Below are positions 29,451-61,363 of a DNA stretch of 64,000 bases, piece by piece. This DNA is from Limonium bicolor. Lineage: Eukaryota > Streptophyta > Magnoliopsida > Caryophyllales > Plumbaginaceae. Position numbers and translations under genes: made by a program. The stretch is from contig CM041779.1 of NCBI GenBank assembly GCA_023374045.1, positions 267,664,131 to 267,728,130 of the forward strand. The letters run 5' to 3'. Each line of letters begins with the position of its first letter. The stretch's first letter is position 1. Below the pieces are notes generated by a model. It did no database searches. It was not told the origin of the DNA and saw nothing but the letters and a program-made list of their open reading frames with translations.

Positions 29451-29484
29451 GTATTCTCCAGCTGTCTTCTCGTTCTGTTTTTTC

Positions 29485-29800: not shown

Positions 29801-29997
29801 TTGTAGCAGGGAATGGACTCCCGTGCTCGCCGCCAGTCATATCTGCGATCAGGCGTTCCGCTTTCTGAGGAAAGGATGCCAGGGTTATGTGCTACATCCT
29901 GAGGTTCGCAAGGATGCGAAGTTGGAGGAGATTCCAGTGGTCGAGACTTCCCAGATGTGTTCCAGGATGACGTACCTGGGCTTCCCCCTGTTTAGAG

Positions 29998-32821: not shown

Positions 32822-32848
32822 GTATGTTTTTTTTCGAGGACGAAATTC

Positions 32849-32863
32849 TTAAGGGGGAGGTGA
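32849..32863 (+). promoter_or_regulatory. Polypurine tract of D
   Basis: TTAAGGGGGAGGTGA follows CGAGGACGAAATTC and touches the 3' LTR start at 32864. Confidence 0.85.
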
Positions 32864-35084
32864 TGTTATAACCCAAGATTTGGTTATATTTTATTTCGTC
32901 ACAAGTGGCCTTACACTATTGTATTTTGGATTTAGGACATGGACGTCCTTCTGAATAAAGACATGGGTAGAAGGGTCTTTCTTTCCTTTCCATTTAAATT
33001 CTGGTGAGATTAACCTAATAACCTCTTATTATTTTATTTCTACCCTTCTTAATTACCCTCACTTCTAATCACGTTCTCACGATCTCGTTTACGCTCTCTT
33101 CTCTCAGTTGGAAACCCTCAACCCTTCTCTCTTCTCTCTCTCAAAATCTCGTTCTGTCCAATCCTTTCAAGTTTGACTGATTGTGGTTCTTCCTCGAATT
33201 CTGCTGTGGATTGCGCACCGTTGCGAAGTCCGGTTCTAAGTAAGGTAATCTACATTGTTCATTCTTCGATTCTGAGATTGGAATGCTCTCCTTGTCTGAA
33301 TCCTTCCTCTACAATCTGATTAGGAATCCGATTGTGTTCCGTTTTCCCCGTCGATTTCCTCTGCTGTTGGTCTTCTCTGCGTTCGTGGTCGAATTCAGGT
33401 ATGAATTGTGGGTTTGTCTGCGTTGACAGTCTCTGATTTGAGAGTGAGTCCTGATTACGGTTTGTTCTTCAATCTGTTCTTTGGTTGCTGTAGAATTCAG
33501 AGTTTGGGATCTGTGTTGCTTGACTGCGTTTGGATTGGTGCTGTGAGGTTTTCGTCTCTGCTGTTCGGTTGTGGTTCGTCTGCTGTTAATTCGAGGTATG
33601 TGGCTTTCGGATTCGATCCGTGTGTTCAGCCTTGGGGAGTTTGGATTCTGCAAATTAACTCACTGATTTGATCTTGTGTTGGTGTGTGGTTTATGTCTGT
33701 TTAATGCCATTTCAATGGATTAAACCCCCAAGGTTGTTTTGTAAATGTGTGTGTTGATTTGGATTGGCTTTGTACCTCTGATTGTGAAAAAAATCTCCTC
33801 TGTTCTCTGCATTTCTCGGCGTGTCTGAAGTTCTGTCCGACCGTTGAAGTTCGGACATGCCCTTCTGCGCTTTTACTTTCTGAAGTTTTCGCTGTGTCCG
33901 AACTTCCGTCCGAGCTTTGAAGTTCGGACACAGTCTTCTGCTTTCTTCTGATTTTGTTTCGACTTGTGTCCGAACATCGGATGTCCGGACACAAGTTCGG
34001 ACTCTCCACGTTCTGTTTTCCGAAGGATGTCCGAACATCCGTCCGAACTTGGATGTTCGGACACCTCTGACTCTTCTTCTGTTTTAAGGTTCGACTTGTG
34101 TCCGAACTTTGATGTCTGGACACAAGTTCAGACATCTGTCTGATTTCGTCTTCTAAGTCTCGACTTGTGTCCGAACATTGATGTCCGGACACAAGTTCGG
34201 ACAGGGTACTGTTTTGACCTTAACTTGCTCGTTTGAGCTCCGTTTTGACTTCCGTTTGCGGGGTTGGATTCCCCTTCTGATTTCCAAGCCATCTATGTGC
34301 TTTCTGGTGCCTTTGGTGCACATATGCTTATCTGTATTTAAGCTTCTGTTTTGGAACCTAGTTATCTCTGTGTCTGAGCCTTTGGATGGCTGGTTTCGTT
34401 GTCTCGTAGCGCGCTATGTAGGATCCTTCTGTTCACGGGTGATGTTCCCCGTTCTGTTCACGGGTGTTTACACCTGTTCTGTTTACGAGTGAGGTTTCCT
34501 CGTTCTATTCACGAGCTGGTTGCTCGTTCTGTCTGTATGCTGTGATCGCTAGTGTCCCACTCTGTTTTTCCACTTCTGTCTGCTTCTGCTCTGTTAGTCC
34601 CTTAATGAATGGACTTCTGTTTCTGGTTTCTGACATATTTGTGGATTCTTTGACTCCTTCTGATTTGTCAATATTCTGTAAATGTTTTGAGCATGCTGGT
34701 TGATGAAGTTGGTCATCTACTGGGCATAGTTGTGTGCTCATTCCCCTACTTCTAACGTTTTTGCAGATTGATTAGCGAGGATCGTCTCCCCTCAGCTTCT
34801 GGAGTTTAGCTGCTTTGTATTTAGCTTCTTTTGAGACCTTTGTAATGAATTTGAGCCTTAGGGCATATTTTGTTAAGCTTCTGCTTTTGACATCTGTTTG
34901 GTGGGTTCTGTAATGACTTTTGGGGATGTTTTAACATCTCTTCGATAATACTGTATTGAAGTATTTCGTTTGGGCCTTATTTGATTATCTGTTTAAGTCT
35001 GTTTATTAGAGCCTTGCGTTATTATGTAATAATACGCGGCGTGTAATACCCCTAACTCCTAGGCCAGTGTTTGGGGGTGTTACA
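32864..35084 (+). repeat. 3' LTR of D (2221 bp)
   Basis: A direct repeat of 26026-28248, ending GGGGGTGTTACA and followed by TSD GTATA. Its palindrome array is at about 33835-34203. Confidence 0.95.
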
Positions 35085-42918: not shown

Positions 42919-45900
42919 TGAAATACCCCAAACTTAGATATGGTGTTTAATGATAAACTAAGATATATGAAGGCTAAATAATGCCTTGAAACATTAAGAA
43001 ATTTCTAATCAAAGAAAATAAGGAAACACCAAGAATAGTTTTAGCAAAAACGTGCTCTAAACTTGGAGAGACATGGGATGAGTACCCAAATATTGTTCTA
43101 AGACCTTATAATATCCTAATGGTCTTTTAAAATCAATTACCAAAGAAACCAAAGCTGAAAACTAGTTAAAACACAAAATGTGCTTTAATAGGATCTAAAG
43201 CACGTTTTTGAAAAATTGTCTTGTAAATGAGTTTGATGGCTAATGTCCTCATTACTCCTTAATTAACATGTGTACTATATAGTATCACATTTGAAGTCTA
43301 TATCAATGGGAAATCAAAAATTTCACAACAATGTCCTTTTTTGGTGAATAGTGAATTAATTAAGCAGTTTATAACATAAGTCTATAATAGTGAGACATTT
43401 GGTCACAAAGACTTAAGTACCCTCATTATTAAAAGGGGCCGGTTTCTTCGGAGGTGAGTCACCACCTTCATGAGTTATTAAGCAATAGAAAGCAAATAAT
43501 ACTTATAAAGCAAAAGTACCTATTTACCTTTTAACATAAATATCACATTTTACTTCCTCTCTCTCCTCATCTCCTCATTTCTTCTTGTTTCCCACGGTTT
43601 CTTCAAAGCTCTCTCCCCTTCTCCATTAACGTGAATAACAACTCCATGTAGCTCCCTCTAGCCTTGTGCCCACATCTTGCTCATTTTAGCTCCAATCCAA
43701 ACAAAATACATATTCTTCTTAGGTAGCTCAAGCTCCTTCTTTCTATCTTTTCAAAACTTCAAGAGCTTCATTTTGGTGCGAAGCCAAACCACCATTGGAG
43801 GAGGAAATTCAATTTGGAGACTCCCTTGGTCTTCATCCATTCTCTTAAGGTAAAGAAAGTGTAAGAAAATCTAGGTTTCACCACCATTTTTCTTTCACAT
43901 GTCCGAAAATTAGTACTCATGGACGACATTTGAATGCCTTGTTCTAGCTTGTTCTACTCTTCAAATAGATAGGAGGTCCGTCTTGCTTCATATCCAAGCT
44001 TGTCTGAGGAACTAAGGTAAACAATCAATTCAAACCTTAAAACACATTTTGACCTATGTTTATTCCTTACGGTAAGTGTGTTGTTTATGCTCATTAGAGT
44101 TATTGGATATTGGTTAGAACATTGGCAGAGAATACACATGGTGACCGGATTGAACAAGAAAGACCTAAGGAAGAAAGCTTTTCAAACTTGTAAATGAACA
44201 AGGTAAATTACTTACCTTAAGGTGTTTTATTGTTTAAGGAATGGGATCTAGATATGTGATGATTTAGTAAGAGTTTACATTAGAAAAGGGTTATATATAA
44301 CCTGGAGAAACAATTAATGACTATGCTTGTGCACTTTGACTAAGAGCAAATGAGAAAAAGAGATAGTTTAAGAATATCAAGGTGAATACAGAACATTTTA
44401 TTTCAATGGGAGCCTTGTTGTGTGTATTCGCAGGTTGAAGGCAAATATATGAGGAAATTCAGTGGGTTAATTTATTGTCATTTAAGGGCCTAAGTGCCAA
44501 GCATTTTGAGTTTAAGCATATTGATGATGTGTGAAGTTTTAGTGTAAATTGTGTGTTAAGGTGTTTGTGATGAATTTGTGTGGTATTTGTTGTTTGATGG
44601 AGAAAACCATGTGTTATGGAGGTACTATAACTAGAGAACCCATGGCAAAATTTAAAGAAGCTTAATGTTTAATATTCTAAGGGAATTTAATGATAAGGAA
44701 GTACTAGGATGTTCTATAGGTTGTCTTGATGAAAAAGGGTGAAGTTAAGGTGTTCTAATGACTTATAATGACTTAGGTATCACCATGGAGGATTTAGGAA
44801 TCAAGAGAATGTATTTGAGTATTTAGGACTTAGCAAATGTTGGTAACACTAGGAAGGAAATAATGTGTTGATGGATGGAAGTTTAGTTGTGAAGGAACAT
44901 TAAATAAATGCATAAGAGAGTTTTTAGATAGTGAAAGATGCTTGGGAGATGATGTTATAGTGGTGCGGAAAACCTTGGCATAGTGGTTACATTAGGTATG
45001 AACCACCACCTAGAAACCTAGAGGAAAGCATTACAAGTGTTAGCATTATTACAAGGAAAAATGTATAATGATTAAGGTGAATCTTGGTGAATGATTTAAT
45101 GTGTTTGGAGGATGCTCTAAGGTGGATTTAAGGGTCTAAATGATGTTAGAACACATTGGATGGCTTGAGGAAAGGTTTAGTGAAGATTTGGCAAAGTTTG
45201 GGCATGTTTTGGTGGCGTCCGACCCAGGGGTCCGACCCAAGTTTGGGTCGGACGGCCTCTGTTTAACGCCAGGGAAAGGTTCTGGAATGGTCCGACCCAG
45301 AGGTCTTGGGTCGGACATGGGTCGGACGGGTGAGTTTTAGAGGCAAATAAGTTTCTGGAATGGTCCGACCCATGTTGGGTCGGACGTGGGTCGGACGTGG
45401 GTCGGACATGGAGGTTTTAGAAGACGGAAATTTTCTGGAATGGTCCGACCCAGTTGGTTGGGTCGACGTGGGTCGGACATGTAGGGTTTTCAAACCCGAA
45501 AGTTACTGGTGGTCGACCCAGAGGGTGGGTCGGACCGGTGGGTCGCGCCCTTAACACTTAAAAAAAAATGAAATTTTGAATTCTAAGAATGGTAATAGGT
45601 AATGAGTATACCTTGGTAGGGTGGTAATGATTGTGACCCTAAGAACTTAAGGGCTTAAGTTAAGTTAAGTTAAGTATAAATATTGATGTTTAAAGTTAAC
45701 TTGTAAGCTAAGTGGCAAAGACTTGAGAGGTTATTGAATGGGAATCTTAAGAGACTAAGTGAGTTAAGCAAGATGCAAATACTAATGACCTAAAATGAAT
45801 GAATGTTTAGGTTTATGAATCGGGACCCCGAAGAAGGTTAAACAAACAACGATCGACGGTGAAACGTACAATCTTCTTGTGACCTGCTTGCTAACGAGGT

Positions 45901-47006
45901 GTCCCGGTTTGGTGCTATCTGTTTAATTGCTATGACTAAACAAGATAAAGCATGCAACCGGTTTATATTGTTCTCGTGTGTTTGTGTTGTTTTACACTAA
46001 CCCCCGAGACTTGAAATTGCTACTAACCAAGTTTAGTACTTACTGAGTTAAGAATAAGAGTTAAGTTTTGGTGGTTGTTGGTTAATGCCCGTTAAGGCTT
46101 AGCTAGCACATGATGGATTAAAATTTCTACTAACTGGAACTTGATGAGGAAACCCGGGACCGATCTCCGGTCATGCATGCTAAGGAAAAGGGGGACGGTA
46201 TCTGAATCAGATCCGCCCTCCGCTTAAGGACTTGTCTTCGGACTTGTAGCCTAGGGCCGGTTGCCGGCTCAGCTACGCTGGACTCCGTCCAGAGTAGGTG
46301 GCATTAAGATGGTGCGGTGGGATCACCTAAATCCCAGGTTCGAATTAAGCTACAACCAATCCCTTCCAGGAAAGGTTTGTATACTGAGATTAAGATTAAG
46401 ATTAAGATGATAAGGTTAAGGTAAGGAACTGAGATTAAGGAAATGAGGACTAAGGAGGGGTTACTAACCCCTTGATAAGGGAACGCTTGAGTCGTTCATT
46501 GTTTGTGAACTATATATGTTCATCTGTGGTTATTGTTTGGCACTTCATATATGCTTGTGTATGTAATCAATTTCCATGCTATCGACAATTAGTCGTCGTA
46601 GCCCGTTAGCTTGGGGGCCATGAGGGTGTACCAGCATTCGTGCTGACCCCCTCGGGGGCTATTTTTACACTTGCAGGTAAGACCCATGAGGACGCACTAC
46701 GAGAGTAGGAGCGGTTAGACTTAGGGTGGGATGTTTATTTTGAGTTCGGGTTGCGCCTGTGCACTCGACTGTTTATAGTTAAACTGAAGTAAGGTTGAGA
46801 TTATGTTTAAGATACTTGTACTCGGTTGGTTGTGGTATTGAGGTTGGTGATGTTTTGAGATGGTTAAGTGTTGTAAATGTTAAGACCGGTATATTCTATC
46901 GATCAGACCGTGGCAAGGTCCAGGTGTTGTTTATTTCCGCTGCGACGTGTTCGATTAAGTGTTCAGTTTTGCGATAACCACGAATGGCTTTGGATGGGGT
47001 GTTACA
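42919..47006 (+). repeat. 5' LTR of A (4088 bp)
   Basis: It starts TGAAATACCCCAAAC and ends ATGGGGTGTTACA, followed by the primer site. It contains GGTCCGACCC repeats (45219-45547), the CGGTGAAACGTA...CGGTTTGGTGCTATCTG block (about 45855-45925) and two hairpins followed by CTTGCAG|GTAAG at about 46628-46680. Layout is like the R1 LTR. Confidence 0.92.
45219..45547. repeat. GGTCCGACCC/GGGTCGGACC repeats in the A LTR
   Basis: About five units of GGTCCGACCCA with GGGTCGGAC in inverted arrangement are spaced by TTCTGGAAT-containing spacers. Open frames on both strands across this tract are repeat by-products. Confidence 0.85.
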
Positions 47007-47011
47007 AAAAG

Positions 47012-47023
47012 TGGTATCAGAGC
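47012..47023 (+). promoter_or_regulatory. Primer binding site of A
   Basis: TGGTATCAGAGC lies five bases after the LTR end, an exact match to the initiator tRNA-Met type. Confidence 0.93.
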
Positions 47024-47884
47024 GTAGTTACGCTCTGATCAAGAAATACCAGACATGAGTAACCACCGAGTTAGGATATAAGTTAAGGAATAAGTGATGG
47101 GTTAAGGGTGTGAGAAGTTAGAGTGAGTAGAGTCAGATGACCACTAATAAGTGTGGATCGTTTTTATCGTCTACGGACGTTATAAATTCGTTAACCAAAA
47201 CAGTGGTGAATACGAATCTAATGTGAGTTATGCTTGTTCAGATGGCAGGACGTCCTAGGGGAAGCCGAGGTCGCGGCCAGGGTGAGGATACTTCAGGGAT
47301 ACCTGGAGGGCAGACGATCGCAGAGATCGTAGCTGCCGCATTAGGGCATATGGGCTATCAGCCTGGTGCGGGTGCACCACCTCCACCGCCACAACCTAGG
47401 GAACCAAACTGGGTGAAGAGTCTAGCAGATCTTCGACCCGCGCACTTTAAGGGGGAGACCGATCCCGCCAAGCTTGAGGCGTACATCTCCGAGCTGAGAC
47501 CGCCTTCGAGACCCTTGATGTCCCTGCTGGGATCAAGGTGCGTCTAGATGCTTTCTATCTGAAGGGGCGGCAGGCGATTGGTGGAAGTTGGTGAGGGCCG
47601 AGCATGTGGCCATCCAGAGTTCGGCTGGGAGCAGTACACTGCCTTGCTACGAGCAAAGTACTACCACCCCGCCCATGTCCAGACGAAGAAGCGCTTGCAG
47701 TTGGATGCGCTTAGGCAGACGGACAAGATGACAGTGGACGAGTATTACTCAGAGTTCACTGCCTTGCTCCGTCTTCTGCCAGGTCCTTTGGATATTCTGA
47801 CCAGATCTTGGTGGACCGCTTCTATGGCGGGCTTAGCCATCGACTCCGCTACGGCATGGGGCCGACGAGTTACACTACCTGCAG

Positions 47885-47969
47885 GTAATAAGAATGATTG
47901 AGATTGAGTAAGTAATGAGTAAGATTTAGATTATGAGAAATAAGTGTGACTAATACTATGGAAAAGCAG
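47885..47969 (+). other. Predicted intron 1 of A gag (85 bp)
   Basis: Donor GTAATAAG, acceptor GAAAAGCAG, AT-rich with stops in every frame. It lies at the same protein position as an 89-bp intron in B (phase 0 there). Confidence 0.8.
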
Positions 47970-48222: not shown

Positions 48223-48303
48223 GTAAGGAAATTGATATTGAATGAGTTAAGAAATAAATTAGTAACCGTTTGAGATATGAGAATTGACAATATGAATCAT
48301 CAG
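48223..48303 (+). other. Predicted intron 2 of A gag (81 bp)
   Basis: Donor G|GTAAGG, acceptor AATCATCAG, phase 1. Splicing joins ATG G to GA TCT, giving APMGSE before the zinc knuckles. The intron in B at the same place is 89 bp and also phase 1. Confidence 0.82.
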
Positions 48304-48645
48304 GATCTGAGACTGAGAAGGGAGCCAGTGGTGGCTACCAGCGACGCTTCATCTGTAGATGGTGTCACAAGGACCACCCCGGGCTCGACTGTAAGGGGAA
48401 TAAGGTGGAGTGCAACTTTTGTGGAGTCTACGGGCATCGAGCATATGAGTGTTACCGGAACCCTGCTAGCAGAGCCTATAGGCCCGACACCAGGGGCAAG
48501 GGCAAGACCGATCAGGGAGCTGGATCTGACAGTCAGAGAAAGGTGCAGCAGCCGGCGGACAAGAACCCACGGGTGACCCAGAAGTCGGGACCCACGTTAC
48601 ACATGGTGGACCGGGACGATGAGCCTGAACCCTCATCGAGGCCAG

Positions 48646-48778
48646 GTACCACTATAACCATTTAGTAATAAAAACTACCTGCTTACCGCATTATCATGCA
48701 TGCTTAGTGAATAAATGAGTTAAGTAAGAATAAGATGAGATTAGAACTTAAGTAAGATATAACCTACTACCACTCTAG
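48646..48778 (+). other. Predicted intron 3 of A, gag to AlkB (133 bp)
   Basis: Donor CCAG|GTACCACT, acceptor CACTCTAG|GA, phase 1. Without splicing, gag ends after GTTITI. The B counterpart is 129 bp with the same donor context CCAG|GTAC and the same phase. Confidence 0.82.
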
Positions 48779-49518
48779 GAAGATTCAACATCTGCTACCC
48801 AATACCATCTACACCTAACCCGGAGCACACCGACATCGAAACCATAGACTTTCCAACCGAACAATGTCAGGTTATCCGCCCAGGTATGATTTTATTAAGG
48901 GGATACCTGACACCCGAAGCACAAATAGCCATCATCAGAAGATGCAATCAACTAGGAATGGGACCGGGAGGTTTTTACACACCGGAGTACCCAGGGGGAG
49001 CAAGGATGAGATTAAAAATGATGAGCTTAGGCAAGGATTGGAACCCGTATGCCAAGAATTACCAAACCATGAGGGAGCAAGATGGAGTCTCACCACCGGG
49101 AATACCCGAAGAGTTCCATCCAGTTATTACACAAGTCGTGGAAATCGCTCAGCAGTTGGAAGCTGAACCGATTCAAGACATCCAGGCAGACATTTGCATT
49201 GTAAACTTCTACGAGAAGGATGGGAAACTGGGACTACACCAGGATAAGGACGAGACAACGGAGTCTCTCGAAAGAGGGATACCCATAGTGTCTTGGTCCA
49301 TTGGGGATGATGCAGAGTTTTTATACGGCGAGCAGAAGCGTGCGGACCGTGCAGATAAGATAGTACTTAAGTCAGGTGATGTATTAATTTTGGGAGGAGA
49401 ATCAAGGATGTTATACCATGGGATTAAGAGAATCAAGCTGAATACAGCACCGTCAGCAGTAATCAATGCGACGCATATGAGACCAGGAAGATTAAACCTA
49501 ACCTTTAGACAATATTAG
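48779..49518 (+). CDS. AlkB-type 2-oxoglutarate/Fe(II) dioxygenase exon of element A
   Basis: A 740-bp open exon, 246 residues when joined to gag (the first Met inside it is residue 37, at 48886). AlkB enzymes oxidatively remove methyl groups from bases in DNA or RNA using Fe(II), O2 and 2-oxoglutarate. Visible features (exon numbering): FNIC near residue 4, ILLRGYLTP (about 38-46), GPGGFYTP, LKMMSLGKDWNP, then VNFY (N143, Y145). Iron ligands are H154 and D156 in LGLHQDKDE and H214 in YHGI. R238, N240 and R244 lie in GRLNLTFRQ, the 2-oxoglutarate and substrate signature. All AlkB core residues are present. The sequence is closest in style to plant ALKBH proteins related to ALKBH1/2, so host capture is likely. 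It is flanked by gag zinc knuckles and protease and is undamaged although gag and pol of this copy are broken. Activity is untested. Confidence 0.93.
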
Positions 49519-49673
49519 CCATGTAATGTTAGAATGAGATGAGGAATGAGATGTAAGATTGAAGCACATGTTGTAAACAGGATGGTCATGAATAAAATAA
49601 CAGTGTTGTTCATATAAATTGTTATGACTCTTGTTATACCATCAATACTCATGAAGCTTGTGAACACAATTAG
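49519..49673 (+). other. AlkB-pol spacer with predicted pol splice acceptor in A
   Basis: About 155 bases of AT-rich sequence end in CACAATTAG|GTTATGG. Joining gag exon 3 (CCAG) to base 49674 gives an open phase-1 junction into ALSILTE of pol. The same acceptor position and phase exist in B. Confidence 0.7.
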
Positions 49674-50087
49674 GTTATGGACTCGGTACGGAAGGTGCGT
49701 TAAGCATACTTACAGAGGCACAGGCCGACGCTAGCGGTACTATCCTCACCGGCACCTTTCCGATTAATGGGATTGAGGCATCAGTTCTCTTCGACTAAGG
49801 GGCCTCGCATACCTTTGTCTCGGCATTATTCGCGAGCAGGTTGGGGCTAGACGCTGATGAGCTACCCGACTTCACGGTTACGCTCCCGTCTAAGGAGAAG
49901 GTTCGTTGCACTCGTTACTACCGAGGAGCCACAATCAGAATTAAGGGAGAAGACTATCCATTCAGTTTCATTGAGTTCAGTAAGCTAGGATTTGATGTTA
50001 TCTTCGGGATGAACTGGTTGGAGCGGCACAAGGGACGTATCCTCTGCGCCGAGCATAGATTGCTGCTCAGGAGTCCGTCTGGGGTAA
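49674..50087 (+). pseudogene. A protease, 5' part, interrupted by B
   Basis: It encodes GALSILTEAQADASGTILTG, then VLFD-stop-GASHTFVS: the second codon of the catalytic DSGA is TAA. It continues with LPSKEKVRCTRYYRGATI, LGFDVIFGMNWLERHKGRILC and LLLRSPSGV, where element B is inserted (TSD GGTAA at 50083-50087). The protein continues at 61364. With its active-site stop this copy cannot produce Pol. Confidence 0.88.
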
Positions 50088-52531
50088 TGTAATACCCCAA
50101 CCCGAAATCCAATAACCTGTGCGATGATCACTCCCAAATAAACATAAACTGCAGCGGAATAAAATACAATAACCGGGCGGTATTACAATGCCGTTGGCCA
50201 CTCTTATGACCAACAAGGCTAAGTCCAAATACAATTCTCAAAAGTCGCGGTCTGAATACGAATACAACCCGAGATACTAGGAATTCAAACTCAAAGGTAC
50301 AATAAATAAGTAAAACAATAACTAGTAGTAGACTCCCATAGCTTGGTCTACCCCACCTACGCTCGGTGTGGTGATCTTCTCAACTTCAGGTACCTGGAAT
50401 TGTTTATCCATGAAATGGCTCAGCAAAATAATTGCCGGTATGGGAAAACGTGCAGCCCATCGGCTACTGGGCCACACCAACTGATTGTTGAATACATGCA
50501 GTTCATTTATAAAGCTGTAAATAAGCATAGCATGATAATATCAAGTATCCATACAAGGACAATAATGTCACATAGAACAAGACTTCAGAAGGTCAAGTTA
50601 GATGAACTATAATCCTTTAATGATAGTCGGGTCCACACAATGGGACTGACAGGTATAAATGAATATCTCAAAATAGTGGAGGTATCGTGACCTCGTTAAA
50701 ATGGAAAGGTTGGGTAATTAGTCCCTCAGAAGATAACATAGTTAACTCCTGTACTTTAGAAAGGTGGTAATTGAACCCTCGAGAGGAATGAAGTCTTCCT
50801 CCCCACTTGTACTGTTTCGGTACGCAGCCGGTGGATGACATAGTGCACCCAAAACTCCCGTTGCGACGTAAATTGAATAGGAGACGACCTGAGACAGGTA
50901 CAACTCCTGTAGCATGCATGGCCAGATCCAACTGGGCTCCTCGTTCTCGTAGTATAGAATTGTTAGGTGACATACAAGGACGTTAATCAAGAACACAATG
51001 TGTATTGTCAATTACCATGTTTAGGATAACGACGTTTGTTATAAAGTGAAGTTAGTGAGGGACTTGTGTACAAGTTCTCGGTACAAATAAACGCAGGAAT
51101 TTAATCCACTGGTATTGTAGTGTTGTATGCGTGGGACATACACGTCGTAGTTAGCATCATTCACGCATTTAAAATAGCACAACAGTGCATAAGAGTAAAC
51201 AACATTTTACATTAATTTTCTTGGTCGTTAATTCAAACAACAATAGCACACAAGCCGGTGTAATCCGGTAGCAAACAGGTTGCAAGAATCCATACCGTTC
51301 ACCGTAGATTGTACTTGACTATTTCCTGGTCAACGTCTGGTCAAGTATAGTCCTAGAACAGGATTAACTGAGAGCGTTAATGGAGTTACCCTCGTATAGT
51401 AATTTTAACGTATTACGTATAGGTTACGTATTCATTATTTCATGTGAGGTTTTAATTGAACGTTAGTTAGTTCCTTTAACCCCTTAACCTTATTTTATGT
51501 TTAAGGCATTTATATACCTTTGAAATCATGTAGCCTCTATTATAAGACTTCTATGGTGTGGTAATTTCCTTTAATCCCCTTATATTTATGTATAACATTT
51601 TATGTTATTTCTTTTGATTTATTATTTTTAAATCCTTTAATATATACTTATATATATATACACGTATTATTCAATTGTAGTTGGTACTAGTCTCCCTTAA
51701 ATTCCTCCTTAAATTACTCTCTCACAATGTTGTTTTGTTTTGTATATTACCGCAAGCAGCACACAATTCGGAACCTATGCTTGCTTAGAGAACATGTATT
51801 GTTCATGTACTAGTTTAATAAATGCAAGTACAATTTTCCTTAAATTACTCCCCACTCTTGTGTCATCTTTGTCACCTTCCATCATTTTTTTTTGAAAGGC
51901 AACGGCTGGAACAAGGCCTTGCGCCAGCTCTTTTTTTTTTGTCTTGCTATAATATTGTATACCATATATTATAACATTATGTATTTAAGTGTTGTCACAT
52001 TGGACTTATTTCCATGTGTTAATTTTTTTACACATGCTATTACTTTGACTTAAGGTTTATTCCTTATGTATATCTTTGTGTATGAATGTATACTTATTTT
52101 ATTGGTGATTAGTAAAGTATACGTAGTGTTCTTGGTACAAGGATTAAGGTACAACATAGGTTGTTACATTGTTTAAATGTGTATAGCAATTTATTTTAGT
52201 ATTTGTAATTACTTACGTCGCTCGTTTGTATAAACGTCCGTATTGATTTTCTTTTCTTGTCGACACTCTCTATATCGAGCTTGTTATGTAAGGGGTTTAA
52301 TCCTTGTTAATAAACGTACATAATTGTTTTGTACGAGTATGTTAATACGTTAGTAAAATTTTCCCCGTTAGCGTTTATGGTAAAACAACTATTGTTACGT
52401 ATCGTTTGCATGCGTGAGGTTGCACGCGTACGTAAACGTTTGCATGTGGGAATGAGCATGCGTACGTGAAATAATTTATACTTTTATTATTTAAATTGTT
52501 TTATAGTGTTAATTGGATTTGGGGTATTTCA
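50088..52531 (-). repeat. 3' LTR of B (2444 bp)
   Basis: On the minus strand it starts TGAAATACCCCAAATC and ends GGGTTGGGGTATTACA. It is nearly identical to 58901-61358 and related to the LTR of C in its 3' half. It contains the short palindromic block with CAAGGCCTTG between A-tracts (about 51885-51942). Confidence 0.95.
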
Positions 52532-52550
52532 ATCTACCCCCCTTAAAAGG
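52532..52550 (-). promoter_or_regulatory. Polypurine tract of B
   Basis: Minus strand CCTTTTAAGGGGGGTAGAT directly before the 3' LTR, nearly the same as in R1 and C. Confidence 0.88.
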
Positions 52551-52956
52551 GACTTCGCCCCGAAGTCTCATTTCTAAATATAAATGGTTGTGGGGAAACA
52601 GATTCCGTTAAGTATCCAATTTAGTTCTAGTTTAGGGAACAAGTCCCGGGTAACGGTAATCTACAAGTCATTGTGCAGAAACAACATAACGGCAATGATT
52701 ACGAAGGATTGTTCTAGTAACCGTGGTACACATATTCATTCCATATAGTAACATAGTGCAACGTAGTGCACATAATCATTCAAAATGGTGTAACGTAGTG
52801 CATATCAAAAGTAGAGTACACAAGTACGAACAAACGTAGTGTTATGCAAGAACACTTACATGTAAAAGTGTAACGAAAGTGCACATAAACTAAAAAGCGA
52901 AAAAGCTCTACCCCCCTAAAAAGAGGGGTACGCCCACGTACCCTAGGCTAGTGTAG
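52551..52956 (-). other. 3' untranslated region of B with a second polypurine-like hairpin
   Basis: After the pol stop, ACGTGGGCGTACCCC is followed by TTTTTAGGGGGGTAGAG (minus strand, 52904-52945), about 370 bases before the true polypurine tract. CCCC and GGGG can pair. CACTACGTTACAC-like repeats follow (about 52740-52880). Confidence 0.75.
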
Positions 52957-53102
52957 CTAGTCGGTAAACAGTGAGGGGAATTTAGCACGCATATCGGCCT
53001 CTAATTCCCAAGTGGCTTCCTCAACATCGTGGTTTGACCAAAGAATCTTTACGAGACTCACAGTCTTGTTGCGAGTATCTCGTGTTTTCCTGTCTAAAAT
53101 TC
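52957..53102 (-). pseudogene. B chromodomain, split off by a one-base frameshift
   Basis: The open pol frame ends at ETPHEF. Inserting one base at GAATTT would read on as a tail starting [10 protein letters not shown], with VKILWSN and EEATWELE, ending at TAG (52957-52959). This is the chromodomain-type C-terminus of Tekay integrases, which is thought to bind methylated histone H3 and direct insertion into heterochromatin. In this copy it is out of frame. Confidence 0.85.
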
Positions 53103-55418
53103 GTGAGGTGTCTCCACGTATCGTATCGTCGGTTCTAAAGATAAAGTCTCTGGTTGTAAGACATGCGAAGGGTGAGGCATATATTTCTTGAGCTGAGACA
53201 CATGAAAAACGTTGTGTACTTTACCCAACTCTGCTGGCAAATCAAGTCGATATGCCACAAGGCCCACCCGCTCTGTGATAGCGTAGGGTCCTACAAATTT
53301 CGGGCTTAGCTTGCCCTTCTGTCCAAATCTGAATACACCCTTAATGGGTGATACTCGTAGAAATACCTGGTCGCCAACCGCGAACTCAAGGTCTCGTCGT
53401 CTCTCATCAGCATACGATTTCTGTCTATCCTGTGCTGCTTTCATATTGTTTCTGATTTGTTGTACTTCTGCCTGGACTTGCTCTAAGTACTCAGGCCCAA
53501 TGATGACGGTCTCACTAGACTCGTCCCAGCACAATGGTGTGCGGCATGGTCTGCCATATAGTGCTTGAAAAGGTGACATCTGTATAGAGGCGTGATAGCT
53601 GTTATTGTATGCAAATTCAATGAGATGTAATCTATCTATCCAGCTGCCCTGGAAATCCAAAGCACATGCTCGTAGCATGTCCTCTAAGGTCTGAATAGTC
53701 CTCTCTGACTGACCATCTGTCTGAGGATGAAATGCTGTGCTAAGCTTCAATTCAGTTCCAAGTGCTTCGCGAGTAGCTCGCCAATATCGTGAAAGAAATC
53801 TGGTATCTCGATCTGAAACAATAGTCTTTGGTACTCCATGATGTCTGATAATCTCTTGCTCGAATAGTTCTGCCAACTTTGGCACTTTCCAAGTGTCTTT
53901 CATCGGAATAAACCTAGCAACTTTAGTCAGTCGATCAACAACAACCCATATCATATTTAGTCCTCCTCTCGTAGGTGGTAGTCCCACCACGAAGTCCATA
54001 GAGATATCATAAAACTTCCACTCTGGAACTGGCATAGACTGTACCATACCTCCTGGTCGTCTATGTTCGAATTTCACTTTCTGACAAGTGAGACATCGAA
54101 TCACATATTCTGTCACGTCGCCCTTCATACCACTCCACCAGAAATACCTCTTTAGATCTTTGTACATCTTAGAAGCTCCTGGATGGACAGATGTGGTAGA
54201 AGTGTGGGACTCTCGAAGAATATGCTCCTTTATATCTGTGCTGTCTCTGGGAATACACAATCTGCCCTTTAATCTGATCAACCCATCATCGTGTAGCTGA
54301 AACTCATACTTCCCTCCTTCAAATGTACCGTCAGACAACTTCTGACTGATCTCCGTCATTCGCTGATCATTCTGCTGTGCGCTACGTATGTCGTCTATAA
54401 GACTCGAGCTAGCCACAATGGCATTTAAGGAATGTGCTCGTCGACTCAATGCGTCTGCTACTACATTAGCTTTTCCTTCTTTGTACTGCAAATCGATGTC
54501 GTAATCCTTGAGAAATTCAACCCATCTTCTTTGTCTCATGTTTAACTCCTTCTGGGTGAATACGTATTTCAAACTTTTATGATCCGAGTATACAGTCATC
54601 TGGACACCATACAGGTAGTGGCGCCAGATCTTCAATGCAAAAACAATTGCTCCAAGCTCCAAGTCATGTGTGGGATAGTTCTCCTCATGTTTCTTCAGCT
54701 GTCGGGAAGCGTAGGCGACTACCTTCCCATTCTGCATGAGTACACACCCTAATCCCCTGCCTGATGCATCACAGTAAACTTCATAACCCTCTGTGCCTTC
54801 AGGTATAGTCAAAACTGGTGCTGATGTCAAAGCATCCTTCAAATTCTGGAATGAGGTCTCACATTCTGTAGTCCATGTGAATGGCGCGTCCTTCTTCATT
54901 AAACTTGTCATTGGTTTTGCTATTCTGGAGAAGTCTCGGACGAACCTTCTGTAGTAACCTGCTAACCCAAGGAAACTCCTGATATCAGTCACTATCTTTG
55001 GTCTGGGCCAGGTGCGGACTGCTTCTATTTTTGCTGGATCCATTGCGATCCCAGCGTCTGATATAACATGTCCTAGAAAGGAAACTCTGTCCAACCAAAA
55101 CTCACACTTGGAGAACTTAGCATAAAGCTGGTTCTCCCTTAAGATCTCGAGTACATGTCGGAGGTGACTCTCATGCTCTTCCTTAGACTTTGAATAAATT
55201 AGGATATCATCGATGAATACAACCACGGTCTTGTCCAGCTGCTCTCTGAATAATCTGTTCATTAAATCCATGAAGACTGCCGGTGCGTTTGACAAGCCAA
55301 AAGGCATAACTGTAAACTCATAGTGGCCATAACGTGTTCTGAAAGCTGTCTTTTCCCTGTCTTGCTCCCTAATAGGTATCTGATGGTAGCCTGATCTCAA
55401 ATCGATCTTTGAAAACAC
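53094..55418 (-). CDS. pol: B reverse transcriptase, RNase H and integrase (774 codons open)
   Basis: Reading starts at [12 protein letters not shown] in the RT palm; the true N-terminus is upstream in shifted frames. [21 protein letters not shown], catalytic [11 protein letters not shown] (near residue 68), [23 protein letters not shown]. RNase [35 protein letters not shown] and DHKSLKYV. Linker: [12 protein letters not shown]. Integrase: HHCC zinc domain ([18 protein letters not shown]...CLTCQKVK). Catalytic core: Asp in SMDFVVGLP, Asp in [11 protein letters not shown], Glu in [16 protein letters not shown]-terminus: [18 protein letters not shown] (GPY/F) and [18 protein letters not shown]. 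All catalytic residues are present, so this is the best preserved polymerase/integrase in the window. Confidence 0.96.
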
Positions 55419-56329
55419 CTTTGCTCTCTTAACTGATCAAAAAGTCATCAATTCGTGGTAGTGGATATTTGTTCTTCACTGACACTGCATTAAGCTCTCT
55501 GTAATCGATACATAACCGAAGGCTTCCATCCTTCTTCTTCACAAAAAGAACTGGTGCTCCCCAAGGAGATACGCTAGGTCGTATGTATCCCTTGTCTAGT
55601 AAATCCTTCAACTGTTCCTTCAACTCAGCCATTTCTGCTGGTGCCATACGGTACGGTGCCTTAGCTATGGGACCGGTACCTGGTAGTAATTCAATGGAGA
55701 ACTCCACCTCTCTAGGTGGCGGTAAGCCTGGAAGTTCCTTTGGGAAAATATCTGGAAATTCTGACACCACTGGCATATCTGGATCAAAATCAGGGTCGTG
55801 CTCTACATCCTGAACATAGCATAAATATACTTCCTTCTTTCCTGACGTGTTTGTACATGGACATAGCAGATATCACCTTTATTGATGGTGCTCTAGGGCT
55901 CTGGCGGTAAGATATTGTCACTCCTGATGGGCTCTTAAGTAACAGTCTGCGCTCTGCACAAAGAATGCGGCCTCTGTGCCGCCCCAACCAGTCCATCCCG
56001 GCTATAACGTCGAATCCTAGACCTCTGAACTCAATCAGGTCAATGGGAAATTCCTCCTCCTTAATACGGATAGTGGCTCCTCTATAAAGGCGAGTGCAAC
56101 TGACCTTCTCCTTAGACGGGAGTGCCACCTTAAAATCAGGTAACTCTACAGTCTAGCCCCAACTTCCCCGCAAGCGAAGGCGAAACGAAAGTATGTGAGG
56201 CTCCGGAGTCGAACAGTACTAATGCAGCCACTCCATTGACAGGAAAGGTGCCAGTGAGGATCGCGCCGCCCTTGCTGGCCTCCTCCTCAGTAAGTATACT
56301 TAAGGCACCTTCCGCCTCCTTAGCACAAC
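55419..56329 (-). pseudogene. pol: B protease and RT N-terminus, frameshifted
   Basis: Predicted pol exon from acceptor TTGTTAG|GTTGTG (first exon base 56329). It reads GALSILTEEEAS, then the intact active site VLFDSGASHTFVS (about 56200). Frame changes follow near 56145, about 55820 and about 55435 (TTTTT run). Between them it reads [71 protein letters not shown] and [19 protein letters not shown]. Retropepsin would process the polyprotein. The frame upstream of the acceptor is open to a Met at 56417, so separate translation is another possibility. Confidence 0.85.
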
Positions 56330-56461
56330 CTAACAACAGAATCTGGGTAAGTACTTTGGCATATGATGGAGGTCGAAAAACATTCACCCCTTTTTTTTTA
56401 CAACAATATTGCTTCATTAATGAGATGATCTTCTTTCAGATGTCCAAAAACAATTACAACA
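56330..56461 (-). other. AlkB-pol spacer with predicted pol acceptor in B
   Basis: Non-coding stretch after the AlkB stop with a run of A, ending CTGTTGTTAG|GT at 56330. It matches in position and phase the spacer of A at 49519-49673. Joining exon 3 to 56329 would skip AlkB. Confidence 0.68.
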
Positions 56462-57201
56462 CTAGTACTTTCTAAAAGTCAAACTTAATCTTCCTGGTTT
56501 CATGTGTGTGGTGTTTATCACTGTCGAAGGTGCTGTGTTTAGTTTAATCCTTTTAATCCCATGGTATAGCAACCTTGATTTTCCACCCATTATTAAAACA
56601 TCTCCTGAATTCAATATGATTTTCTTTGCAAGGTCCACACGCTTCTGCTCGCCATAAAGGAACTCTGCGTCATCTCCAATTGACAAAGACAATACTGGTA
56701 TCCCCTGATCGAGGGACCCTTGTGTTTCATCCTTGTCCTGATGTAGTCCTAAGCGGCCTCCTTCTTCATAGAAGTTGATGATACATAGATCAGCCCTTAA
56801 GTTGGGAACTGGATCTTCTTCTAGCTGCTGAGCTGTATTAACTGCTTGTTCCACAATATGTAAAAGTTCTTCTGGGATTTTTGGCACTTGCGTTCCATCT
56901 CCATTTCTTGTATCCTGGTAGGTCTTTGAGTAAGGATTCCAATCCTTTCCTAAGCACATCATTTTCAGCTTCATTTTTGATCCTCCTGGAAATTCTGGAG
57001 TGTAGAACCCTCCTGGTCCTGCTCCCAATTCTTGACATCTCCTGATGATTGCAATTTGTGTCTCCGGTGTTAGGTATCCCTTGAGTAGTATCAAACCTGG
57101 TTGGATAACCTTACACTGTTCGTTCTCTGGTTCTGGTGCTTTGATAATGTTTTCTTCCTGGGAGGGCGGTGAGGGGATAGGAAAGCATATCTTATAGCTT
57201 C
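56462..57201 (-). CDS. AlkB-type 2-oxoglutarate/Fe(II) dioxygenase exon of element B
   Basis: A 740-bp open exon, exactly as long as that of A; the two proteins align without gaps at about 70% identity over the 210-residue core. There is no ATG in the first part: the position of Met37 in A is Leu (TTG) here. Expression as a spliced gag fusion therefore seems required. The exon opens with YKICFPIP. Core motifs: LILLKGYLTP, GPGGFYTP, LKMMCLGKDWNP, INFY, iron ligands H and D in LGLHQDKDE, the third His in YHGI, and GRLSLTFRKY at the end. The residue that is Asn in A and in bacterial AlkB (RxNLTFR) is Ser here, which might weaken co-substrate binding. Predicted role is oxidative demethylation of methylated bases. 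It stands between gag zinc knuckles and protease, as in A. Confidence 0.93.
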
Positions 57202-57330
57202 CTACGTGGTTTAAAATTTTACTAGTGAGTCTTATTAGTTTCTTCCTATGTAACTAGGCAATCAAGGCATGCAAGCACTCATTCATATCATCCATTGCTC
57301 AAATAACAGGTTCACATGGGTTTAGAAGTA
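57202..57330 (-). other. Predicted intron 3 of B, gag to AlkB (129 bp)
   Basis: Donor CCCAG|GTACTTCT, acceptor CCACGTAG|GA, phase 1, parallel to intron 3 of A (133 bp). Unspliced, gag ends at GTSKPM a few codons into the intron. Confidence 0.82.
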
Positions 57331-58717
57331 CCTGGGTTGGTAGAAGGACCAGCCTCATCTGAGCGGTCCATGACATGCAGGGCGGGTCCCGATGCTGGGC
57401 CCTTGCCCTTATTTCCCTGAGTTTGGTTTGTTGGTGGAGGGCGAGTATCGCTAGCTCCATTCTTATGGCCGGTGTTTGCCTTTGCTCCCGGGGTAGTTCC
57501 TGCTCTCCGGGTTCTTAATGCACTCGAAGGCTCGGTGTCCCCATATCTGACAGTGGCGGCACTGGACTTTCTCCCCTTGGCAGTCCACGCCGGGGTGATC
57601 CTTTCCACATTGTCTACAGTTGAAGTGGCGGACAAACCTCTGGCCCGTGTGTGAGCCATGTCCAGAACCTATTACAATTGAAGTCAATTATATATTCCAA
57701 CGGTACTGAAGTAATCACAAAAGTTTTCAAATTTAACTGCTTGGTTAGAGTGTCTACCCTTAGATGGGTAGGTTTTCTGTGAGTTTGCTGCTCCGTAGGT
57801 TCCTGACTGGGGGTTCCCAGTAGTCTGGTTCCCCTTCCCTTGATAGGACCCCTGGCCTCTCTGAAAGGGTTTGTTCCTTCTGTTGGAGTTTCCCTGCTTG
57901 GCATCATCGCCGCCAGGCCCATCCTTTCTCTTTTGGGAGCTCAAAGCATCCCTTCTCTTGCATGTGATCTCCACAACGGAGGCAGCACGGCAACATTCCT
58001 GAAATCTCAAGGTATCAGTTTCCAAATCTCCCATGACGGGGTAATATAGGTAATAAAATTCTAACTGGTCATATTACTCTTGTTTACCTGCAAGCTGGTG
58101 GGAATAACTGGTCCCATCCCAAACTGGAGACGAGGACTCAGTCCCCCATAAAACCAGTCGACCAAAATCTCGTCCGAGTATCCTATTCCGGGTAGTAGTC
58201 GGAGTAGTGAAGTAAACTTTGCATAGTACTCGTCCACGGTCATCTTTCCCGTCTGCTCCAGCGCATCAAACTCCCTAGTCTTCACCATCCTGGTGTGGGT
58301 CGGGTAGTACTTGCCCCGAAGTAGTGCGGTGTAGGCTTCCCAAGTGAAAGCTGGATCGTCCAGGTGGTCGGCCTTCACCATATTCCACCAATCTCTTGCT
58401 GCATCTTTCAGGTAAAAGGCAGCGAGCCTCACCTTTTCCCTAGGTGGGACGGCGAGTGTCTCAAACGCTGTTTCCATCTCCATGATATAAGCCTCCAAGT
58501 GAGCAGGGTCAGTCTGCCCTTTGAATACATTTGGTCTGAGATCAGCCAAACTCTTCACCCAATCTCTCTCTCTGGGTGGTGGTGGTGGAGGTAGCTGCTG
58601 CTGCTGTTGTGCAACCCCCGCCTGTGCAAATGCCTGAGCTATCAAAGTAGCAATATCTGCCAGCGTGACAGGTGACTCCTCAGCTGTCTGTCCGCGGCGT
58701 CCTCCTCTTCCTGACAT
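57331..58717 (-). CDS. gag: B gag: three exons with two zinc knuckles
   Basis: Start MSGRGGRRGQ at 58717. Predicted exons on the minus strand: 58717-58088 (210 codons exactly), 57998-57758 and 57668-57331. Exon 1 is capsid: QQQQLPPPPPPRERDWVKSL, LRPNVFKGQTDP, AAFYLKDAARDWW, MTVDEYYAKFTSLLRLLPG. Exon 2 begins ECCRAASVVEI and ends in a basic, Gly/Asn/Gln-rich nucleocapsid stretch. Exon 3 encodes CRQCGKDHPGVDC and CRHCQIWGHRAFEC, RNA-binding zinc knuckles; a one-base shift near 57470 breaks the part after them. Gag forms the particle and packages RNA. Exon lengths and phases (0, 1, 1) support real introns. Confidence 0.87.
57669..57757 (-). other. Predicted intron 2 of B gag (89 bp)
   Basis: Donor AAGG|GTAGAC, acceptor TTGTAATAG|GT, phase 1. 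Splicing gives SKGSGHG before the zinc knuckles. Position and phase match intron 2 of A. Confidence 0.75.
57999..58087 (-). other. Predicted intron 1 of B gag (89 bp)
   Basis: Donor TTGCAG|GTAAACAAG, acceptor GAGATTTCAG|GAATG, phase 0, AT-rich with stops. Splicing gives TSLQECCRAA. It matches intron 1 of A in position. Confidence 0.82.
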
Positions 58718-58883
58718 CTGCAGGATGTTGAGGTATATTAGATACTGTGGTCACAATCTTGGTCTTGGATAGTAGTCTAAGTAAAAACTAACTTAAACTC
58801 CTTTCTAAACTATCTCTCAACCCGTAACCTAAAGCTTTAGAAATCCTAATCTTAGTGTATTCTTGTATCCAGAGCGTAACTAC

Positions 58884-58895
58884 GCTCTGATACCA
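58884..58895 (-). promoter_or_regulatory. Primer binding site of B
   Basis: TGGTATCAGAGC on the minus strand, five bases after the 5' LTR end, exact initiator tRNA-Met type. Confidence 0.94.
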
Positions 58896-58900
58896 CTTTT

Positions 58901-61358
58901 TGTAATACCCCAACCCGAAATCCAATAACCTGTGCGATGATCACTCCCAAATAAACATAAACTGCAGCGGAATAAAATACAATAACCGGGCGGTATTACA
59001 ATGCCGTTGGCCACTCTTATGACCAACAAGGCTAAGTCCAAATACAATTCTCAAAAGTCGCGGTCTGAATACGAATACAACCCGAGATACTAGGAATTCA
59101 AACTCAAAGGTACAATAAATAAGTAAAACAATAACTAGTAGTAGACTCCCATAGCTTGGTCTACCCCACCTACGCTCGGTGTGGTGATCTTCTCAACTTC
59201 AAGTACCTGGAATTGTTTAGCCATGAAATGGCTCAGCAAAATAATTGCCGGTATGGGAAAACGTGCAGCCCATCGGCTACTGGGCCACACCAACTGATTG
59301 TCGAATACATGCAGTTCATTTATAAAGCTGTAAATAAGCATAGCATGATAATATCAAGTATCCATACAAGGACAATAATGTCACATAGAACAAGACTTCA
59401 GAAGGTCAAGTTAGATGAACTGTAATCCTTTAATGATAGTCGGGTCCACACAATGGGACTGACAGGTATAAATGAATATCTCAAAATAGTGGAGGTATCG
59501 TGACCTCGTTAAAATGGAAAGGTTGGGTAATTAGTCCCTCAGAAGATAACGTAGTTAACTCCTATACTTTAGAAAGGTGGGAATCGAACCCTCGAGAGGA
59601 ATGAAGTCTTCCTCCCCACTTGTACTGTTCTGGTACGCAGCCGGTGGATGACATAGTGCACCCAAAACTCCCGTCGCGACGTAAATTGAATAGGAGACGA
59701 CCTGAGACAGGTACAACTCCTGTAGCATGCATGGCCAGATCCAACTGGGCTCCTCGTTCTCGTAGTATAGAATTGTTAGGTGACATACAAGGACATTAAT
59801 CAAGAACACAATGTGTATTGTCAATTACCATGTTTAGGATAACGACGTTTGTTATAAAGTGAAGTTAGTGAGGGACTTGTGTACAAGTTCTCGGTACAAA
59901 TAAACGCAGGAATTTAATCCACTGGTATTGTAGTGTTGTATGCGTGGGACATACACGTCGTAGTTAGCATCATTCACGCATTTAAAATAGCACAACAGTG
60001 CATAAGAGTAAACAACATTTTACATTAATTTTCTTGGTCATTAATTCAAACAACAGATAGCACACAAGCCGGTGTAATCCGGTAGCAAACAGGTTGCAAG
60101 AATCCCATACCGTTCACCGTAGATTGTACTCGACTATTTCCCGGTCAACGTCTGGTCAAGTATAGTCCTAGAACAGGATTAACTGAGAGCGTTAATGGAG
60201 TTACCCTCGTATAGTAATTTTAACGTATTACGTATAGGTTACGTATTCATTATTTCATGTGAGGTTTTAATTGAACGTTAGTTAGTTCCTTTAACCCCTT
60301 AACCTTATTTTATGTTTAAGGCATTTATATACCTTTGAAATCATGTAGCCTCTATTATAAGACTTCTATGGTGTGGTAATTTCCTTTAATCACCTTATGA
60401 TTTTATGTATAACATTTTATGTTATTTCTTTTGATTTATTATTTTTAAATCCTTTAATATACTTATATATGTATATATATATATATACACGTATTATTCA
60501 ATTGTAGTTGGTACTAGTCTCCCTTAAATTCCTCCTTAAATTACTCTCTCACAATGTTGTTTTGTTTTGTATATTACCGCAAGCAGCACACAATTCGGAA
60601 CCTATGCTTGCTTAGAGAACATGTATTGTTCATGTACTAGTTTAATAAATGCAAGTACAATTTTCCTTAAATTACTCCCCACTCTTGTGTCATCTTTGTC
60701 ACCTTCCATCATTTTTTTTTGAAAGGCAACGGCTGGAACAAGGCCTTGCGCCAGCTCTTTTTTTTTTGTATTGCTATAATATTGTATACCATATATTATA
60801 ACATTATGTATTTAAGTGTTGTCACATTGGACTTATTTCCATGTGTTAATTTTTTTACACATGCTATTACTTTGACTTAAGGTTAATTCCTTATGTATAT
60901 CTTTGTGTATGAATGTATACTTATTTTATTGGTGATTAGTAAAGTATACGTAGTGTTCTTGGTACAGGGATTAAGGTACAACATAGGTTGTTACATTGTT
61001 TAAATGTGTATACCAATTTATTTTAGTATTTGTAATTACTTACGTCGCTCGTTTGTATAAACGTCCGTATTGATTTTCTTTTCTTGTCGACGCTCTCTAT
61101 ATCGAGCTTGTTATGTAAGGGGTTTAATCCTTGTTAATAAACGTACATAATTGTTTTGTACGAGTATGTTAATACGTTAGTAAAATTTTCCCCGTTAGCG
61201 TTTATGGTAAAACAACTATTGTTACGTATCGTTTGCATGCGTGAGGTTGCACGCGTACGTAAACGTTTGCATGTGGGAATGAGCATGCGTACGTGAAATA
61301 ATTTATACTTTTATTATTTAAATTGTTTTATAGTGTTAATTGGATTTGGGGTATTTCA
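58901..61358 (-). repeat. 5' LTR of B (2458 bp)
   Basis: A direct repeat of the 3' LTR with about 1-2% visible differences. Its outer end, at 61358, touches the TSD GGTAA. It includes the ACCGGATTACACCGGCTTG block (about 60058-60122) and the GGTTCGATTCC motif (59580-59590, minus strand). Confidence 0.95.
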
Positions 61359-61363
61359 GGTAA

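Follow-up and report, generated by a model that had tools for sequence, protein, structure and literature searches.

Why does an AlkB-type dioxygenase exon lie inside a Ty3/gypsy LTR retrotransposon of Limonium bicolor? What kind of enzyme is it, what carries it, and what may it do for its carrier? The exon was found in a stretch of 64,000 nucleotides (contig CM041779.1, forward strand), here called the window. A preliminary description of the window reported a complete AlkB dioxygenase with HxD...H and RxNLTFR motifs, and proposed a profile search of the exon. The exon belongs to an element that we call element A.

48779..49518, + strand: AlkB exon of element A, classed as an ALKBH1-type 2OG-Fe(II) dioxygenase (PF13532), with an AG at 48777-48778 and a stop codon at 49516-49518.

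The exon lies within an open reading frame at 48763-49518 (+). It comprises 245 codons plus two bases of a split codon, and it ends in its own stop, TAG. The preliminary description gave the start as 48779, which coincides exactly with the boundary predicted for the splice acceptor. The profile search matched PF13532 (2OG-FeII_Oxy_2; Pfam) with an E value of 5e-46 and covered all 194 profile positions. The HQD...H and C-terminal motifs of this AlkB and of a second one in the window, that of element B, can be aligned with those of rice ALKBH1 and of E. coli AlkB. The HQDKDE motif is identical to that of E. coli AlkB. The C-terminal RxNLTFR-type motif is RLNLTFR in A and RLSLTFR in B, where S replaces N. 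The full-length match and the motif alignment bear out the description of a complete enzyme.

The AlphaFold model of the element AlkB has a mean pLDDT of 93.7. Its top structure matches in the PDB were 5xoi and 5xeg, "structure of OsALKBH1," with an E value of 1e-28 and 51% identity. Among solved structures, E. coli AlkB came next after OsALKBH1, and ALKBH5 appeared first at rank 42 among the fold matches. A profile search of the PDB retrieved OsALKBH1 (8e-123), E. coli AlkB and mammalian ALKBH1, with ALKBH2 weak; ALKBH5 was absent up to an E value of 10. The nearest named proteins (best 120 of 373) include several plant proteins named "DNA N(6)-methyladenine demethylase ALKBH1C/D." By these profile and fold searches, the element AlkB is of the ALKBH1 type, not the ALKBH5 type. 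Rice chain 5xeg is presumably the same locus as the rice ALKBH1 reported to be active on N-methyladenine (6mA). The accessible part of PMC10469495 describes rice ALKBH1 as nuclear and as active in vitro on 6mA in single-stranded DNA.

Element A contains the following features around the exon.

42919..47006, + strand: 5' LTR of element A, with termini TGAAATACCCC...GGGGTGTTACA, matched by a 3' LTR.
47012..47023, + strand: primer binding site (PBS), TGGTATCAGAGC.
47227..47884, + strand: Gag exon 1 region, with an interrupted reading frame.
48288..48645, + strand: nucleocapsid (NC, zinc knuckle) frame, running to a phase-1 donor between 48645 and 48646; the exon start is not fixed.
49674..50087, + strand: protease (PR) exon, with one in-frame stop, cut by the insertion of element B.
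61852..64000, + strand: RT-RNase H-integrase, after element B, with one in-frame stop, running past the window.

The 3' LTR lies beyond the window (L031:625-4772), with AAGGGGGGTAGAT before it. Aligned over 4190 columns (144 gaps), the two LTRs differ at 69 positions. The target site duplication (TSD) is 4-5 bp, and its fifth base is ambiguous. We take the PBS TGGTATCAGAGC to be complementary to initiator tRNA-Met. The knuckle region upstream of AlkB (48288-48662) contains CNFCGVYGHRAYEC, a plain C-x2-C-x4-H-x4-C; the Pfam zinc-knuckle matches are weak, at 17.8 and 15.7 bits, under the cut-offs of 27 and 20.8. Downstream of AlkB is a retroviral aspartyl protease (PF08284, 9e-16, 49799-50089). 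The chromodomain of A also lies beyond the window (PF00385, L031:60-320, 26.2 bits against a cut-off of 25.1). The 5' LTR contains a tandem repeat of about 73-80 nt at 45273-45545 of the window. In the alignment with the 3' LTR, the register of this repeat is shifted, so the repeat number may differ between the LTRs.

Element A is a Ty3/gypsy LTR retrotransposon, with LTRs, a TSD, a PBS, Gag knuckles and the order PR-RT-RNase H-integrase. The preliminary description had given it an LTR, primer site, gag and pol, and had placed AlkB between the gag zinc knuckles and the protease. All of these parts were located, and the PF13532 match, the knuckle motif and PF08284 confirm the placement. Judged by the sequence of the chromodomain at the integrase C end, elements A and B are chromoviruses; in B this tail is in another frame. 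The lineage is presumably Tekay/Del. The pol relatives among the matches listed (best 120 of 7970) include the chromodomain proteins P0252, P0272 and P0339.

Element B is inserted in the PR exon of A. The preliminary description was right about the AlkB of A; it was incomplete in that it missed this nested second AlkB element and the phase-1 exon layout given below.

50088..61358, - strand: element B, a chromovirus nested in A, with both LTRs (50088-52531 and 58901-61358).
58884..58895, - strand: PBS of element B.
56462..57201, - strand: AlkB exon of element B, with its own stop, TAG (PF13532, 7e-49).
53094..55872, - strand: RT-RNase H-integrase of element B, in more than one frame (Pfam).
52966..53103, - strand: chromodomain-like integrase tail of element B, in another frame (tblastn with P0241).

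The LTRs of B are 98.45% identical to each other. The TSD is GGTAA, at 50083-50087 and 61359-61363. The NC, PR and chromodomain frames of B are broken, and the layout NC-AlkB-PR is common to both elements. A search of the 64-kb window by tblastn found no third AlkB.

The two elements are well diverged. Amino acid identity between A and B is 67% for AlkB and 87% for pol, and AlkB changes faster than pol. For AlkB, pN is 0.19 and pS is 0.75, with synonymous sites near saturation. Divergence at 4-fold sites is 0.52 for AlkB (33/64), 0.56 for PR (14/25) and 0.62 for pol (141/228). These similar values indicate that AlkB has diverged with the element since before the split of A and B.

Other repeats were seen in the window. 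An LTR fragment at 8329-9908 is 86.7% identical to the B LTR and represents a further B-family copy or a solo LTR. A gypsy gag-pol remnant with several open stretches lies at 14985-18735 (+); we take "Athila-like" to be its name. A further chromovirus-like element, at about 26800-34200, contains the PBS TGGTATCAGAGC at 28254 and an integrase and chromodomain-like region at 31456-32821. It gave no AlkB match by tblastn. A run of nine A is present at 56391-56399 (-), about 60 nt past the AlkB stop of B, and none was seen there in A. This run may be left over from the 3' end of a captured mRNA.

How could the exon be expressed? The pieces between the coding parts have the following predicted boundaries.

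47885..47969, + strand: predicted intron 1 of element A (GT...AG), with a homologous intron in B and stops in all frames.
48646..48778, + strand: predicted intron of element A between NC and AlkB, with low conservation between A and B.
57202..57331, - strand: predicted intron of element B between NC and AlkB.
49519..49673, + strand: spacer of element A between the AlkB stop and the PR exon, with GTAAT at 49523-49527 and the PR acceptor AG at 49672-49673.

The inter-exon pieces are 85-155 nt long with 64-72% A+T and contain stops in all frames. Between A and B, the exons tested are well conserved (z of 18-38 against shuffles), whereas the pieces between splice sites are poorly conserved (z of 2.6-4.1). 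In loci of the A family, sampled as described below, the GT and AG of intron 1 are kept in 30/30 (the window's own included). The intron between NC and AlkB keeps its GT in 29/30 and its AG in 30/30 loci in each of two partly overlapping samples. The AlkB stop and the PR acceptor are kept in 30/30 loci in both samples, and the GTAAT after the stop is kept in 29/30 and 30/30. As a possible donor site, this GTAAT might turn AlkB into a cassette exon.

In both A and B, all three sites (the NC donor, the AlkB acceptor and the PR acceptor) fall in phase 1. Eight loci of a third sublineage (L032-L039) extend the comparison. The AlkB acceptor is phase 1 in the same codon, and the AlkB stop is at the same place, in all 10 diverged elements (A, B and L032-L039). 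For NC, a script located an in-phase donor in A, L032 and L039, and inspection by eye located one in B; the script did not find one in L033-L038, where some NC frames are shifted or stopped earlier. For PR, the script located the acceptor in A and in six of the eight loci (all but L032 and L036); in B the acceptor was identified by eye. For a single ancestral layout, both joins would be in phase with a chance of one in nine. Because the phases match, NC can join AlkB, giving a Gag-NC-AlkB that ends at its own stop, or PR, giving Gag-Pol. We infer from these predicted sites that NC is spliced onto AlkB in some transcripts and onto PR in others.

Is the exon a feature of one copy or of a family? 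The window's own 2.92-Gb assembly was searched. With the AlkB of A as the query, 150 of 150 scored places had 95-100% identity, and 6 contained an internal stop. The copy number is thus at least 150 scored places. The first-look candidates (53,534 with the AlkB of A, 46,479 with a Kingdonia query and 2,254 with a PR query) are loose, may overlap and are not counts. We fetched 30 of the 150 places, the window's own included. In 29/29 other copies, gag exon 1, intron 1, exon 2, NC, the intron, AlkB, the spacer and PR all align.

This first sample was chosen on AlkB, so a second sample was taken with the PR exon of A. It had 40 scored places, of which 30 were fetched, the window's own included; some elements are common to both samples. 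In 30/30 PR-chosen loci, AlkB has the NC donor site on one side and PR on the other. The five ligand codons are unchanged in 30/30 AlkB-chosen loci and in 30/30 PR-chosen loci, except for one gapped H153 codon in the latter. AlkB is free of stops and frameshifts in 8/30 PR-chosen loci and free of frameshifts in 10/30 in the selection alignment. Many of these loci (L040-L069, about 98% identical in PR) contain several frameshifting AlkB indels, up to 12 in one. The indels reflect either decay or long-read assembly noise in repeats.

The nonsynonymous/synonymous ratio of the AlkB frame in the 30 PR-chosen loci is 0.24 for shared variants and 0.39 for singletons. At the same sites, the two other frames gave ratios of 0.86-1.30 as a wrong-frame control. 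A pN/pS ratio of 0.15 from the AlkB-chosen sample was set aside as biased by choice, and the PR-chosen sample was used instead. On these sequence ratios, the AlkB frame is under purifying selection. The low in-frame ratio together with the decayed copies indicates that replicating lineages kept the enzyme while individual copies decayed.

A third sublineage was reached with the host ALKBH1 of Kingdonia as the query. This gave 132 scored places at 51-60% identity. Eight of them were opened, and all were element copies. Their AlkBs are 58-62% identical to those of A and B. An NC peptide lies upstream and PR lies downstream of AlkB in 8/8 loci. The genome's own host ALKBH1 gene was not identified among these eight of 132 places.

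The preliminary description had allowed for a domain confined to this single locus, or for an exon nearly identical to a host gene. Many copies were found, and named host proteins are at most 52% identical to the AlkB of B (39-52%, best 120 of 373 listed). A chance or single-locus reading was rejected on the 150/150 places, the 29/29 copies and the 8/8 third-sublineage loci. A recent insertion of a host gene was also rejected, because the exon is common to A and B, its synonymous sites are close to saturation between them, and host identity is low.

Where did the element AlkBs come from? Five unnamed database proteins (P0001-P0004 and P0108) contain element-type AlkB features, and an associated element is indicated for P0002 only. 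P0002 is on a contig of 26,561 bases. P0241, a protein of 1095 aa with a chromovirus-type pol 79% identical to that of B, is also on a contig of 26,561 bases. Because the contig figure is the same, P0002 and P0241 are probably on one contig. P0241 has a chromodomain match of 17.8 bits, under the cut-off. The next pols after P0241 are at most 61% identical (best 120 of 7970). In a tree of 38 pols, a branch with a support of 100 separates A, B and P0241 from the others. This tree was built without the window's Athila element, since its very long, mostly empty row had split the group.

In the AlkB tree, 15 element-type AlkBs group together in a single clade (100/99). The 28 other AlkB proteins in the tree, mostly named ones from plants or algae, fall outside it. 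The clade consists of 10 AlkBs seen in elements of this genome and the 5 database proteins, which were assigned by features. The element-type AlkBs are without an insert that is present in most aligned host proteins. As far as sampling shows, the sequences suggest that the element AlkBs stem from one capture. Among the annotated proteins listed (120 of 124 matches, about 476-1515 aa), none combines AlkB with a gag domain. Elements of this kind are usually masked when plant genomes are annotated. Eight ALKBH1-like proteins from a conifer, liverworts and green algae (P0178, P0185, P0186, P0188, P0233, P0234, P0236 and P0239) contain an extra PF23134, PF06221 or PF10408; the named flowering-plant matches in the same listing (120 of 124) do not show these domains. 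A scan of IMG/VR with the AlkB of B gave no match.

The preliminary description knew of no LTR retrotransposon lineage with an AlkB. One precedent exists. An Ogre-like Gypsy element of Phalaenopsis (Gypsy_Pa_2799) encodes a paALKBH5-like 2-ODD in ORF2 that demethylates m6A in vitro, according to the accessible text of PMC9289625. The same text reports that a screen of 121 angiosperm genomes found the domain in no other genome, even without a copy filter. Like the present elements, those of Phalaenopsis are high-copy plant Ty3/gypsy elements with a complete AlkB and its cofactor residues (PMC9289625, in the part available). The Phalaenopsis elements are described there as Tat/Ogre-like and 25.5 kb long, with a tRNA-Arg PBS and a dual RNase H, whereas the present ones have a chromodomain and the PBS TGGTATCAGAGC. 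Their Gag-Pol is in one ORF and AlkB is in a separate ORF2; here AlkB is an exon between NC and PR, with a predicted Gag fusion. Their AlkB belongs to the ALKBH5/9/10 clade on the available account (PMC9289625), while ours is classed as ALKBH1-type. Besides PMC9289625, we found no report of AlkB in LTR retrotransposons among the literature matches listed, a set that leaves subscription papers and preprints outside. The elements described here appear to represent a second AlkB capture, in another Ty3/gypsy lineage and with another AlkB type and architecture.

Other known systems are alike in part. The plant ALKBH1C/D host genes and OsALKBH1 (5xeg and 5xoi) belong to the same subfamily and gave the best sequence and fold matches. 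Host ALKBH1 differs in that it is 39-52% identical to B among the matches listed, with the Kingdonia protein at 51-60% to the third sublineage, and the elements form their own clade. The Ty1/copia elements EVD (shGAG) and BARE1 produce spliced Gag-only RNAs, as far as the sources at hand describe them. There too, splicing separates Gag-only from Gag-Pol; their product is Gag alone, whereas here an enzyme is predicted to be added. Fungal DNA transposons carry TET/JBP dioxygenases, and PMC12730594 states that no retrotransposon was found with one. These are also transposon-borne dioxygenases able to remove base methylation, but the family differs (PMC12730594). Betaflexiviridae and relatives also contain AlkB in a selfish RNA-based element; the likeness is by description, and the best matches of the element AlkB are to plant ALKBH1 proteins.

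What may the enzyme do? Our main reading is that a high-copy chromovirus carries an ALKBH1-type exon under purifying selection, likely as an alternative terminal exon of Gag, and that the enzyme would demethylate the RNA or cDNA that the element itself packages. We give it a probability of about 0.5. What it starts from is read from sequence: the AlkB domain with its catalytic residues, the same placement of this domain across three diverged sublineages, the selection, the GT/AG sites and the AlkB stop. The phase-1 fit of NC to both AlkB and PR covers A, B and part of the third sublineage. A single splice choice would lead from NC to AlkB (Gag-NC-AlkB) or from NC to PR (Gag-Pol). This one choice would thus set the Gag:Pol ratio and tether the enzyme to the zinc-knuckle protein. 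The spliced Gag-only RNAs of EVD and BARE1, as described in the parts available, provide a precedent for the splicing step.

A fraction of Gag would then bear AlkB at its zinc-knuckle end, and coassembly would place the enzyme on the packaged nucleic acid. Gag-NC-AlkB would enter virus-like particles and act on single-stranded nucleic acid during reverse transcription. The favored substrate would be 6mA in minus-strand cDNA, because the closest characterized relative acts on single-stranded DNA. Other candidate substrates are m1A/m3C lesions, on the model of AlkB; m6A in element RNA, on the model of the orchid enzyme; and the primer tRNA. In HIV-1, m1A58 of the primer tRNA sets the plus-strand strong stop, according to the accessible part of PMC13191261, so its removal from the primer tRNA could help or harm the element. 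In full, the proposal is a particle-borne demethylase, with a splice choice between Gag-Pol and Gag-nucleocapsid-ALKBH1, that would demethylate the packaged genome, cDNA and primer tRNA (6mA, m1A/m3C and perhaps initiator-Met m1A58). We hold this detailed version tentatively, as somewhat less probable than an even chance.

Could the exon be a neutral passenger, that is, a host ALKBH1 fragment captured and copied without function? Gene capture by plant transposons is common, and most PR-chosen copies have decayed. The selection seen with the wrong-frame control, the same layout in three diverged sublineages and the divergence of AlkB along with the element all argue against this, and we regard it as extremely improbable. 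The exon might instead matter mainly for its stop codon, as a regulated exon that keeps Pol in check, with the enzyme secondary. The stop and the acceptor are kept in 10/10 diverged elements, and Gag is split from Pol by splicing in EVD and BARE (in the source passages available). A bare stop, however, would not keep catalytic residues and a low nonsynonymous/synonymous ratio across 245 codons, which makes this very unlikely.

The remaining alternatives accept a functional enzyme and differ in its target. In one, AlkB would be freed by the protease or made as a separate product, and its trans-acting target would be mRNA of the host or the element, with m6A as an example. This has been proposed for the Phalaenopsis ORF2, and ALKBH9B is reported to act in this way on the retrotransposon ONSEN (as cited in PMC9289625). 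The neighboring exon of the element encodes a protease, and the Phalaenopsis ORF2 product demethylates m6A in vitro (PMC9289625). The element AlkB is, however, classed as ALKBH1-type, not ALKBH5-type, and the exon phases point to a Gag fusion; we consider this reading rather doubtful. Repair may also be the main task, with m1A/m3C lesions that block reverse transcriptase removed from element RNA or cDNA rather than host marks erased. The HQDKDE motif shared with E. coli AlkB, and the rank of that protein next after OsALKBH1 among solved structures, are consistent with this, and RNA repair has been postulated for virus AlkBs (PMC9289625, part available). Substrate preference is not readable from sequence, and rice ALKBH1 is reported to be active on 6mA (PMC10469495, accessible part), so we judge repair as the main task to be unlikely.

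If the main reading is true, LTR retrotransposons acquired AlkB at least two times, from different subfamilies; the Ty3/gypsy lineages that took it up, and their gene layouts, differ as well. Nucleic acid methylation would then be a recurring focus of conflict between plants and their transposons. Given the ALKBH1 type and the predicted Gag fusion, a testable question is whether the mark or lesion is on the packaged RNA, the single-stranded DNA intermediate or the primer tRNA.
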